This document shows, piece by piece, positions 13,797 through 45,200 of a DNA stretch of 45,415 nt (positions within the stretch are counted from its first letter, which is position 1; each line of letters starts with the position of its first letter). The notes below the pieces were generated by a model. That model had not been told where the DNA came from. It saw only the letters and a list, made by a program, of their open reading frames with translations, and made no database searches. Source of the stretch: a virus; the IMG/VR virus record IMGVR_UViG_3300044972_001652, positions 1-45,415 of that record; one strand, given 5' to 3'. A program made the translations under genes and the position numbers.

Positions 13797-14231
13797 GGGG
13801 AATTGGATGAGGCCACAGTTATGAGCTGTTCGTTTGGAGTTAACCTTATCGCTGGGACGACCTCTGGGTTTCTGCTTAGTATGAGGGAATCGTTACAGAT
13901 TCTGGATGTGGTAGCAACCACCTGTGCTAGTTGTGCTGTCTGATACTAAACGAAATGGCGAGCCACCACATTGTCAGCAGGTTGCTCAGTCTCTGGGTTA
14001 TGTGTCTTGCACGTCTGCTGGATTCACTCGGGGACCAGTCCCTGCCATGTTTTGTTTTAACGAGCCTCACTTGGCTTCGTGCTCGGAGGGTTCCAAAACT
14101 TACTACCCACAAATAGCAACTTTACAGCTTGCAACTGGCAGTCCCTTTGTCCAGTGGGATCAGCAAATCTCTGTTTGGAGGGTGGGTCGAGACAGTGAGG
14201 AAGACCCACTGAAAGGCATGACCCTCAAATT
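13797..14231 (-). ncRNA. 435-bp gene-free stretch, candidate structured RNA (region A)
   Basis: No credible gene is present on either strand. Several strong hairpins are visible: GTGGGTC/GACCCAC (14182-14188 with 14203-14209), CGAG/CTCG near 14059-14085, GTGGT-4nt-ACCAC (13908-13921) and the nearly palindromic GGGACCAGTCCC. A longer CAGCAG/CTGCTG pairing spans about 13976-14022. Its 5' end on the minus strand carries an element (14203-14229) related to one in region B (14814-14838). Minus-strand transcription is assumed from the operon. No tRNA-type T-arm was found. Confidence 0.4.
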
Positions 14232-14498
14232 TTACCACTTCTCTTTGTTAGCCCAGTAAGCGGCGGACATCTTGCCTTTGTCGATGTTCTTAGCGTGACG
14301 AGCTTTGAAAGCTTCGTTGCGTTTGCTGCCGTCAGGGGATCCGGTGACTCCTTGCTGGCCGAAGCGAATGGTTTTGACTTGATCGCCTTCTTTAGCGACG
14401 ACCACGTGAGATTTGGTTGGGTGGGAAGGTGTGCGCTTTGGGGAGTTGACACCGGAGACGCCAACTCGGGCGAGGAGTGAGGATAGTTTTGAGCTCAT
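14232..14498 (-). CDS. DUF6321-like phage protein, 88 aa
   Basis: The C-terminal half (FGQQGVTGSPDGSKRNEAFKARHAKN, ending SAAYWANKEKW) is a pattern I recognise from many phages (DUF6321-like). The function is unknown; the strongly basic tail suggests nucleic-acid contact. The gene stands alone between two gene-free, structured regions, with a 21-nt gap to the gene downstream of it on the plus-strand map. Confidence 0.72.
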   Translation of the reverse strand: MSSKLSSLLARVGVSGVNSPKRTPSHPTKSHVVVAKEGDQVKTIRFGQQGVTGSPDGSKRNEAFKARHAKNIDKGKMSAAYWANKEKW

Positions 14499-14519: not shown

Positions 14520-14729
14520 TTATTCCCCGTCAGAGACGGGTTCGTGCTCTGGTTCGACTTCCTTTTCTTCCTCAGGCTCGGAGAACTCAGTCAAAGGGCC
14601 GCAGCCACTTGGACCGGAGAGTATCTGCTTGTTCTCAAGGTCGATGATGTCGAAGTCTTCTTTGTTTGAAGGGAGAACGTTGGAGAAGAAGTATTGATCT
14701 TTGTTGGTATCGAAGAGGAGATATTTCAT
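14520..14729 (-). CDS. Small acidic protein, 69 aa (92 aa from an alternative start)
   Basis: ATG 14729 was chosen because it follows CAAACAACAAT, the same leader that precedes the capsid gene start. An in-frame ATG at 14798 would add 23 Asn/Pro/Gln-rich residues. The first part (MKYLLFDTNKDQYFFSNVLPS) looks like a small beta-rich fold, and the C-terminus is strongly acidic (EEEKEVEPEHEP). Acidic early phage proteins often act as DNA mimics or inhibitors; here that is only a possibility. Confidence 0.6.
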   Translation of the reverse strand: MKYLLFDTNKDQYFFSNVLPSNKEDFDIIDLENKQILSGPSGCGPLTEFSEPEEEKEVEPEHEPVSDGE

Positions 14730-14830
14730 ATTGTTGTTTGGATTTGGTTGAGGGTTGACACTGAAGTATTGCAACTTCTCTTGTTGGTTATCCGACATTC
14801 TCGGAAAGGCTCTGACCCTGAGTGGCAACC

Positions 14831-15044
14831 CTCAAATCAGCACACCACTTTCGCTCTAGACCTGGCCGAGGTCGGTGTTGAGGATTGCGAGTCCTACAAC
14901 AAGTTTTCGAACTTTATCTTGCCGGAACCCATCTGCTAGTTTCGTTCGGGATTATGCCAAACAATATGTCGCTTAAGGTTAGCTTCGGTTCACTGACCCT
15001 TTCGGGCGGGTGTGCTGATTTGAGAGTGGAGGCTTTGCACCTCC
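14831..15044 (-). ncRNA. Candidate structured RNA with a 16-bp closing stem (region B)
   Basis: It lies in a 368-bp gene-free gap (14730-15097). Positions 15009-15024 and 14831-14846 are perfect 16-bp reverse complements that enclose 162 nt. On the minus strand the enclosed part holds, in order, CCC-GAAA-GGG (a GNRA tetraloop), GGTCAG/CTAACC, AAGTT-CGAA-AACTT, AGGA/TCCT and GACCT/AGGTC. Just 5' is a GGAGG/CCTCC hairpin (15028-15044) that contains AAGGAGGTG. The layout suggests a multi-branched folded RNA read with the early operon. It matches no RNA family I can name. Confidence 0.45.
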
Positions 15045-15097
15045 TTGAGTGTCACAATTGATTTGTGAGTATGCGCACACTTACTTTACTCAATTGG

Positions 15098-15766
15098 TTA
15101 GATCAGGTCACTGCTGATCTGAGCGATGCGACGCTTCTCGTCGATCTCCAGAGCACGGGCGATGCCGTCTTCCGTGAAGCCACCGAGGTTGTCGAAGTTG
15201 TGGCCTGGGTTGTTGGTTGTCCACTTCGTGATGAAGGTGTCTTCCGTGACCGGGTTGCCGTCGGAGCCAGTGGAAACAGCCTCCACCATGGCAAGGATCT
15301 TGCGAGCCATGGCGGTGAATCTTGGATCAGGCTCGGACTCTTCTTCGGCCAGGGCGAGGACAAACGGAGTGGCGTCAGCAGCTTGCTGGGCCAGCACGAG
15401 GTAGTCAGCTTCGGAGACGGTGGTTTCCGTGGTGTGAGTGGTGCCGGAGACGACCACTGAGCCGTTGAGAACGAGCTTCAGGTATTCGGCTTCGGTGATC
15501 TTGATGTCGACTTCTTCACCCGCGCGATTCTTCTTCGTCTTGCCCGTGGACGGGACTGCGACGCCGGTGTGAGCGACGAGGGCGGCAACCACTGCCTTGC
15601 GGAAAGCGGGATTCCACTTCTGATGCAGGGTGTGTTTGATCGCGCCGAAGAAGACGTTTTCAGGGGAGGAGGAGGCGACGAGATTTTCCAGGCCAGCGGG
15701 GACTTGGATGTAGATTTTCGCGCCGAGGCTGGTGTTCTCGAATGCTTGAGTTGGGATGTTGGACAT
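15098..15766 (-). CDS. Hypothetical early protein, 222 aa
   Basis: The protein is soluble and Ala/Val/Thr-rich with no recognised domain; a Lys/Arg patch (GKTKKNRAGEEVD) interrupts an otherwise acidic sequence. It has its own candidate promoter (TTGCAT-16-TATCTT at 15837-15864) and an A/C-rich CAAACA leader. These mark it as the first and possibly most strongly expressed gene of its unit. The structured RNA candidate lies directly downstream. A high-level DNA-binding or structural role is possible but not shown. Confidence 0.68.
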   Translation of the reverse strand: MSNIPTQAFENTSLGAKIYIQVPAGLENLVASSSPENVFFGAIKHTLHQKWNPAFRKAVVAALVAHTGVAVPSTGKTKKNRAGEEVDIKITEAEYLKLVLNGSVVVSGTTHTTETTVSEADYLVLAQQAADATPFVLALAEEESEPDPRFTAMARKILAMVEAVSTGSDGNPVTEDTFITKWTTNNPGHNFDNLGGFTEDGIARALEIDEKRRIAQISSDLI

Positions 15767-23131: not shown

Positions 23132-23143
23132 ACTACTGCAAAA
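23132..23143 (+). repeat. ACTACTGCAAAA element, copy 1
   Basis: Perfect 12-bp inverted partner of 23233-23244. Together they flank 89 bp with direct repeats and a hairpin, in the 379-bp gene-free gap 23027-23405. Candidate binding site of a replication or packaging protein. Confidence 0.55.
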
Positions 23144-23157
23144 GTGAAAAGGAAGCC

Positions 23158-23192
23158 AGTCTCAAGAGGGGGGTGAGATTGAGTCTCAAGAG
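23158..23192 (+). repeat. Direct repeat AGTCTCAAGAG x2 (24-nt period) with hairpin
   Basis: AGTCTCAAGAG occurs at 23158-23168 and 23182-23192. The second copy also starts a short hairpin (AGTCTC with GAGACT, ending at 23199). It lies between the two inverted ACTACTGCAAAA copies. Two helical turns plus a little separate the copies, which suits repeated protein binding. Confidence 0.45.
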
Positions 23193-23232
23193 AGAGACTA
23201 TCTGTTACCTATTTCATACCCATTTTCGACAT

Positions 23233-23251
23233 TTTTGCAGTAGTGGCGCGC
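23233..23251 (-). repeat. GCGCGCCA-CTACTGCAAAA element, copy 2 (inverted)
   Basis: On the minus strand this 19-mer matches the element after the small terminase gene (24747-24767) except for a GCG insertion there and the final base. Its CTACTGCAAAA part is also an exact inverted copy of 23132-23143. Confidence 0.55.
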
Positions 23252-42200: not shown

Positions 42201-45200
42201 AAATGTTAGACGCATAGGGCGGGTTACAATTCCTGATTCACTTAAAGGACAGGGTGTAGGGAAAGAGCTAATTCTAAAGCATTTGGAAGCGCATCCAGAT
42301 TCTTATTTCTATAATTCACAGGCCTCACCTGAATTAACAAGAGCTTTCAATTCATTGCAGCGTGATGGTTTGATTAATCTTAAAGGTGAGATGTCTCCTG
42401 GAGGTGAGCCCAAATTGATGTCCCATGTGATCTCTTTAACTCCTGAAGGTAAAGTTTTCGCAGAAAATATTGGCAAATCAAAACCTTTGCTTGGGGAACC
42501 TCAGGGAACCATCTTCGGCGCAGCCTCCCAGCAAGCCAAGCAAATCTTCCTCAACTCACCGGCATTCCGCTCCCTTTCCACTCCCGATCAAATTTCCTTC
42601 ATCTTCGCTCACGAGCACGCCCATGTCTCCTTTTCCAAAGCCAAGGCAGGTGAGTATGGCGTTGAAGCCCAAGCTCTGATCTCCCGCGCGGAAGAATGGG
42701 TAAAGGCTGCTTCCCCAGAGGCAAAAGCTAACGTCGAGGCCGCGATTCGGGATATGGCTATTCCAAAAGGGATGAGCTTGAAGGATATTGAAGGCGTCCT
42801 GAAGAATCCTAACAATGAGGAATGGCTGGCTAACTCACATGCGATGTTGGCAATTGGCGCGTTGCATTCGGCTAATCCAAAGGAGATGTTTGCTTTCCTG
42901 CCTAGGCCGATTCGGGATTTGCTTGACTGGACGGTGGCTACTATGCAGAGGCTGGTGAAGGGTGTGACCACCTGGGCGAAGCTTGGATTCTCCTTGGATC
43001 AGTATCAGCAGGTTAAGACAATGGAGAGCTATTTCGACGCTGTCCGGAGGAGCTTCCGCGAAGCGGAGTTTGATGCTGCAGAGGCGGCGAGGTTCTTGGA
43101 GCTTGGCAATCCTGGAATGCGTCAAGGACAGGCGGAGAACTTTTTGCTCGCACAGGATACCACTGGGCGGCCTAAGTTCATGACGGAACCTAGGCAGTTC
43201 CTCGGAACCACCTGGCAGAAGTTTGTGATGGGGATGGGGAATCTGGGGAGGATGTATCCAGTGCTTCAGCCTGCTGTGGATGCTGTGCGGAAAGCCAATG
43301 ATGTCAAGATGGACGTTAATGCACATATCATGAAGATCATGTATGGCACGATGTCTGGGACGGGGAAGGTCTTGATGGACTCACCGTCGCTTGAACGTGT
43401 GGTGGGGAGTCCTGCGTTGAAGAAACTCTGGAATGACATGTCCACCAACGCAGAGAAGGAAGGACTAAATCCGCTGGAGATGCGTGAGCAAGCGGATGGG
43501 ACGGTGGAGATGGTCTTCAATGACAAAGGCATGTCACCGGAGCTGCGTGGGAGGTTGAAGCAGTTTAAGCCGGAGGCGCAGAAGGCATTGCTTGAAACGA
43601 TGGCTAACCACCAGCGGGCTAACATGTCTTTGCAGAAGTTCCTCGTTGAGTTTGAGAAACATGGAGCCACTGCGTTGATTGCGAACGCGGTGTTCTCGCT
43701 ACCTAGTCAAAAGAACAAAGCTGGCTTTGAGGGAGCTTACGACCGGGCTGCTGGTTTGTTTGACGGCGTGTTGAATGGTGATCAAGTGAAAATTCAGGAA
43801 GCTGTTAAAGGACTAAGTGAGGAAGAGGCAACCACTGCGGTTGAGATGGCTAAGGTCTATGCGGAGTCTAATGCGGAGTTGAAAGCGTTTTATGATTCTA
43901 GGCCGAGCTATATGTCGCTGAGAAGGTTTAAAGAGTTTCGCCAACGCATTGTCGACAAGCAAGGCAATCGAGATGTTATCGACGCAGCTTCTACAACCGA
44001 GCTGAACAAAGTCTTGAAGAAGTATCTTGACGCCGGGTGGGTTCTGGAGGGTGTTCCACTTCGCTCAAGTGACAAGGCCGCCAAGGAAGCCTTCCATGTG
44101 AATGATGCTGTCCGAGACATTCTTGAGCGGAAAGAGAAACGCGTCAGAGACTTCGTTGAGCTCTCCAACATCCCGGACGACATCAAAGCGGATTTGATGA
44201 AACAGTTTAACTTTGTTGGTGAACTTGAGCATCAGGTCAACGCACAGAGCATGTATAAGCCAGGAACTGGAAGAAACTTCACTGGGGATCTTTCCCGCTT
44301 TGATGTGCTTGAGCAGTTCATGCACTCCGTTCCTGCTTCCATCTCCGCCGCGTCGAACGCTTCGCTGAACGCACGGGTGAATTTTGAGCTACGCCATCCG
44401 GAGTTGCAAATGCAGCGCACGCAGAAAGACCAGTTCCTGGCTTTGTTTGAACAGAGTAAGAAAACTGACGGAGCGTTCTGGAAGGAGATGAACCGCGCGA
44501 ATGCAGCATTCCACATTGGCTTGAACTTCCCTGGACACCTTGCTGAAGGCTTTCAGCCATTCCTTTCCCACATCCCTGAACTCCGCGCGCAAGGCGCCAC
44601 CCAGTGGCAAGCGATGAAGATGATCGGCAGGGCTCAGAACGAAGTCTTCAGGATGTATGGGAAGATTGCAAAGGAGAAGATCTGGAAACCAGCTGATGTG
44701 CAGGTCAAAGCTAACGGCAAGGACTATGACGGCATTCCCGCCATGTGGTATCGTGCTAACGAGGGCAAAGCTGCTGACGCTAAGGACATCATGGACATGC
44801 TCGCGGATAACATCTCCCGAGTTCAGAGAGCCCCACTTGCGGATTTGTTTGAAGCCACTGGGAGAGAGCAACGCAAGCTCCTCGATCTCATGGAAGGCAA
44901 TCGTTTTCAGACAACCGCTGAGGCTTTGGCTGCTCCCGTTCACAAGTATGAACAGAGCGTCATGGGGCTTTACTCAAACTTCACCCAGCACAACGGCCTT
45001 CTCGCACTGATCCCCGCTTATCGACAGGGTCGGGCAAACGGGCTTACCCATGAGCAGGCGAAGTTGGAGGCTGCGAGGTTTGACCTGGCGACTAACAACT
45101 CTGGTGGGAGGCTTGAGAGGCCTGAGATGTTTGGGAAACTAGGGGACGCCGGTCATGTGGTTTACGCGCTTTCGAGTTACGTCCGTGGGCGGTTTGCACA

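Follow-up and report, generated by a model that had tools for sequence, protein, structure and literature searches.

A long-stemmed element among phage replication genes is a divergent copy from a conserved family of phage RNAs

Does the long inverted repeat between two genes of this phage encode an RNA, and how might such an RNA act? The window, the whole stretch of DNA that was analysed, comprises the 45,415 bases of a phage record from IMG/VR; its replication genes lie on the minus strand and its head genes on the plus strand. The first-pass annotation of the sequence had proposed a new RNA here. The element belongs, as a divergent copy, to a conserved family of phage RNAs encoded among early (replication) genes, and at least ten uncultured relatives of this phage carry a homologous structure.

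The long stem and its strand

The pairing that the first-pass annotation described is present: a perfect 16-bp inverted repeat, with outer ends at positions 14831 and 15024, encloses 162 nt. Among the perfect inverted repeats within 300 nt, none elsewhere in the window reaches this length, and the longest repeat in 30 block shuffles of the window had 13 bp. On the minus strand, the stem, called P2, extends to 19 bp with one G-U wobble, and its 5' arm ACTCTCAAATCAGCACACC (15027-15009) pairs with its 3' arm GGTGTGCTGATTTGAGGGT (14846-14828). Both arms are supported by covariation and by a covariance model match, as described below.

Folding of the 298-nt region on the minus strand gave a z-score of -3.61, and none of 200 shuffles folded as well. 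The interior of P2 (14847-15008, minus strand), folded alone, reached -37.3 versus a shuffled mean of -37.7 (z 0.12). The stem carries the fold signal, and the inner stems do not. Of the original observation, the long stem, a stem capped by GAAA, and a hairpin with Shine-Dalgarno (SD)-like letters are present, but the "at least five inner stems" offered as evidence are not, as significant structures, because the 162 nt fold like shuffled sequence. The insignificant structure of the interior and the single copy of the repeat in the window would fit a chance inverted repeat. That explanation is refuted by the length of the repeat relative to the shuffles and by its conservation with covariation in relatives.

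The wobble pairs indicate which strand is used. The G-U wobble in P2 of the window and the further wobbles in relatives are compatible with pairing on the minus strand but not on the plus strand. This bears on the possibility that the element is a replication origin or a recombination site that is an inverted repeat incidentally. Inverted repeats are frequent at replication origins, the element is located among replication genes, and conserved blocks of the family have changed places. However, G-U pairs correspond to A-C on the other strand, P2 contains single-sided G-U changes, and the element always has the same orientation with respect to transcription; these features point to RNA and make a DNA element very improbable.

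No promoter-like site was found near the window element; phage promoters are often not sigma-70-like. A 14-bp repeat at 44257-44443 of the window lies inside an open reading frame, and on either strand its fold resembles that of shuffled sequence. Another inverted repeat of 12 bp, spanning 113 nt (23132-23244), is located between the leftward and rightward gene blocks.

Relatives, covariation and covariance models

The relatives were obtained through alignments of other proteins: G007 via the portal, and L205-L246 via DNA polymerase. Direct searches with the RNA or with the upstream gene p222 (15098-15766, minus strand) yielded no relatives of the element, and p222 alone, the helicase alone, and a two-sequence p222 alignment used as queries added nothing new. 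Searches of phage and plasmid records found no relative of the RNA, and a literature search by sequence returned only unrelated papers, mainly on microRNAs. Exact matches to a P2 arm in viral contigs (29) were discarded as chance, since none was accompanied by the second arm. Scanning the window and the family members against Rfam with cmscan, in both gathering and E-value modes, gave no family match; this check had been suggested by the first-pass annotation, and its outcome is the same even at loose thresholds.

Homologues of p222 directly precede the RNA in most members. In L206, L207, L208, L209, L220, and G021, a hairpin, P1, and a 20-bp P2 that is nearly identical in sequence to the P2 of the window follow directly after p222 on the same strand. 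In G007, the corresponding place holds a P2 of 17 bp that is partly different in sequence, and one additional small open reading frame (75 aa) lies between it and p222. The length of P2 ranges from 17 to 21 bp across the family. Inside P2, most relatives contain a near-invariant core, GCAGUGAGGGCAC / GUGAGCGACCUGACC, which is present in eight other genomes and partial in L223. The core is absent from the window, even with one mismatch allowed, and G007 likewise lacks it. Therefore, the grouping of the window copy and G007 with the family rests on P1-P2 and on position. In L222 and L224, P2 differs at many pairs, and the core is identical except for one base in L224. The RNA is not adjacent to p222 in L222, L223, and L224, so it is more than a tail of p222.

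The distant relatives L210 (1708-1820) and L221 (2095-2235) contain a hairpin and then a closing stem of 13-16 bp after p222. These elements share the layout, have no sequence similarity to the family, and were missed by the covariance model.

Compensatory changes in the long stem, named by the first-pass annotation as a test, were found in the relatives in both alignments that we analysed. In stem columns aligned by hand for seven distinct sequences, 97.4% of cells were paired, and eight P1/P2 pairs had changed on both sides. None of 500 shuffles reached the observed pairing or covariation, and sliding the partner by 1-3 columns reduced the pairing to below 48%. The model-fitted alignment of eight sequences, which is biased towards the structure, contained 98.8% paired cells and 12 pairs changed on both sides, and again none of 500 shuffles matched it.

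The covariance model R1 was built from six relatives, with the window left out. Outside its training set, it matched L222 (1.4e-10), L224 (1.2e-8), and G007 (3.5e-6). The window element was matched at 0.0079 in 843 kb and at 7.4e-6 in a local search, a match that is weak in bits (22-23). The model R2 added L223 (2.7e-8). At an E-value of 0.01, R1 had no match in 100 further phage records that were linked to the window only through the portal, the polymerase, or p88, a set that comprised many fragments and included L223, which was detected only by R2. Opposite-strand R1 matches in the same genomes scored below the sense strand and were rejected as a product of the palindromic stem. In the window, as in the relatives, a P1 hairpin directly precedes a long P2 with compensatory changes. 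We consider it very likely that the RNA family is real, and the compensatory stem changes and the lack of an Rfam match support the original proposal of a candidate new RNA.

The hairpin P1 (GGAGG-UGCAAAG-CCUCC, 15028-15044, minus strand) contains AAGGAGGTG; the hairpin with these letters covers 15028-15046. A homologous covarying hairpin lies directly 5' of P2 in other members. The first-pass annotation had described the window hairpin, with no start codon behind it, and both details are correct. It had speculated further that the RNA competes for the tail of 16S rRNA. The presence of AAGGAGGTG in P1 of the window suggested that idea, but these SD-like letters make up the 5' arm of P1, in which GGAGG is paired. 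They occur in no other member: the same arm reads UGAGC, UGGG, or GCUGG in other genomes, with matching 3' arms, and comparison of P1 across the family revealed no conserved accessible SD-like sequence. The SD-like letters are best read as one solution for a hairpin, since the pairing of P1 is kept and the letters are not. Any SD-like sequence upstream is present in only 1-3 of 24 window genes, which gives no sign of a host that depends on SD sequences. A 16S rRNA decoy in a phage that hardly uses them is scarcely credible.

The leaders of the 24 window genes are often rich in C and A, for example ACAAAACCAAACAAACACAAG, with SD sequences almost absent. Leaders before p222 in the relatives are likewise C/A-rich and nearly free of SD sequences.

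Blocks, neighbouring genes and tRNA-like elements

In the relatives, the stretch from P2 to the next gene contains three blocks, E, D, and C, of about 32-39 nt, separated by variable linkers. Blocks of 30-39 nt are mostly 90-100% identical between phages, whereas their p222 proteins are only 37-67% identical. This conservation exceeds the needs of a plain stem. In the window, the pseudoknot-like block E, CAGAGATTTGCTGATCCCACTGGACAAAGGGACTGCC (14137-14173, minus strand), is identical to that of L207 at 37 of 37 positions and sits in a 102-nt stretch (about 14084-14185) that is 94% identical to L209. Block D, CCAGAGACTGAGCAACCTGCTGACAATGTGGTGGCTC (13960-13996, minus strand), is identical at 37 of 37 positions to L209 and G021. 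A hairpin GAAUC-UGUAAC-GAUUC (13887-13902, minus strand), picked out by eye, is a possible remnant of block C, which reads CCGUC-ACUGUAAC-GACGG in relatives. Four matches to the block C motif in bacterial genomes were dismissed as chance.

Blocks E and D of the window are located 0.7-1 kb downstream of P1-P2, with two small genes between. The window locus is thus rearranged, and its P1-P2 part is without the core. Because of the intervening genes and the absent core, P1-P2 of the window may represent what is left of the RNA, or else a variant that acts with a different partner.

One small downstream gene (14520-14729, minus strand) would encode 69 aa from a methionine at 14729. This start is suggested by a homologue recognized by eye in G021, where the gene follows the RNA, and it would leave positions 15097-14730 free for RNA. 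Directly 3' of P2 is a further structure, P3 (14748-14835, minus strand), which the first-pass annotation had missed, as it had blocks D and E. P3 consists of a stem, UUGAGGGUUG.CACU / AGUG.CAACCCUCAA, and three hairpins (z -4.16), and about 7 nt of it coincide with the 3' arm of P2. Because the two share UUGAGGG, the outer part of P2 and P3 are mutually exclusive. The window copy could accordingly be modelled as a two-state leader controlling the 69-aa gene, the likely start codon of which is 18 nt after the highly stable P3. However, the overlap of P2 and P3 is demonstrated in the window and in no relative, and the homologue of the gene in G021 comes after block C instead. We consider such a leader switch improbable.

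Between P3 and block E lies p88 (phrog_7595; 14232-14498, minus strand), a small gene that is widespread in phages and apparently mobile. It has hundreds of relatives, and the RNA was found in none of the 50 of their records that were searched. Copies with 75-90% identity occur in many otherwise different phages.

Several relatives contain tRNA or tRNA-like elements next to the RNA. ARAGORN identified a tRNA-Ala in L209. Patterns of an acceptor stem and a T-arm are present in L206, L208, and L209, with about 0 expected, and L208 contains three T-arms, one of them with a distant 5' arm. No such neighbours were found in the window, L207, or G021, and neither ARAGORN nor Rfam detected a tRNA or tmRNA in the window. 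The stretches 2680-3000 of L209 and 3290-3370 of L208 resemble tRNAs, with acceptor, D-like, and T arms and very long or odd middles, and are not called by ARAGORN.

A separate observation concerns positions 5244-5267 of L222, where TGACAGCCGGGAAAGACCGGCAC is identical over 22-24 nt to sequences in unannotated gaps of many cultured phages, among them Stenotrophomonas phage Pokken, Cronobacter phage ESP2949-1, mEp390, and Acinetobacter phage Alexa. In Pokken, it is located some 350 nt before a tRNA cluster. The stretch has no Rfam match and is perhaps a separate widespread phage RNA motif.

Possible action of the RNA

Based on the conserved elements and their arrangement, a mechanism can be proposed. 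The element would be transcribed within the early message downstream of p222 and cut out of it as one or more stable RNAs. The RNA would then act in trans, as a structured RNA comparable to GOLLD and ROOL, and would either bind a partner through the invariant core or self-assemble. We give roughly even credence to action in trans as a stable RNA. Such action is favoured by the unpaired letters that are kept, by the other location of the RNA in L222-L224, and by the differing positions of the blocks. Recombination of a cis-acting element could also explain the conservation and rearrangement.

In a cis-acting role, P1 and P2 would stand at the 3' end of the p222 message as a barrier or as a site of processing, for instance by RNase III, and would protect the message and separate it from the genes behind. 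At 17-21 bp, P2 has the size of RNase III sites. In eight genomes, the structure comes directly after p222 and on its strand (with one small open reading frame between in G007), and the distant relatives L222 and L227 contain short hairpins, some of them terminator-like, at this place. As with the RNase III processing stems known from early phage messages, a long stem lies between early genes on the transcribed strand. Such stems do not, however, require an invariant core and further conserved blocks, and in this family conservation extends to unpaired letters, both in the core and in blocks C, D, and E. The RNA is located away from p222 in three genomes, and a terminator-type T-run was sought behind P2 and not found. 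On these grounds, a cis-acting mRNA element is possible but rather unlikely.

The trans-acting reading can be compared with known large phage RNAs. GOLLD is phage-borne, consists of conserved regions with less conserved joints, and is found near tRNAs, sometimes with tRNAs in a linker (PMC12286853). ROOL is an RNA of phages and prophages that occurs near tRNA islands and has no known function (PMC12286853). The family described here resembles GOLLD in being phage-borne and in its conserved blocks with variable linkers. The tRNA or tRNA-like neighbours, present in several relatives and not found in the window, L207, or G021, may be a further likeness to GOLLD and, together with the occurrence in phages, to ROOL. 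The family differs from GOLLD in being shorter and in having no Rfam match. The difference from ROOL is again the lack of an Rfam match, together with blocks that are short and interspersed with variable stretches. A homo-oligomeric RNA cage further characterizes GOLLD and ROOL. Since no Rfam family was matched, we do not claim membership in GOLLD or ROOL.

We tentatively speculate, at well below even confidence, that the family may be a hitherto unrecognized class of large, modular phage RNAs. It would have an invariant internal-loop core and exchangeable blocks (core, E, D, and C), would be coupled to aberrant tRNA-like RNAs, and would act in trans at an early stage of infection, for instance through the binding of a host factor or through RNA-only assembly. 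No function is known for large structured phage RNAs such as GOLLD and ROOL. In this family, a 28-nt core is kept nearly letter-perfect in phages with polymerases that share only about 40-65% identity. As a separate family with such a core, with compact genomes of about 45 kb and with natural variants without the core, it would offer a small, testable case for the role of such RNAs.
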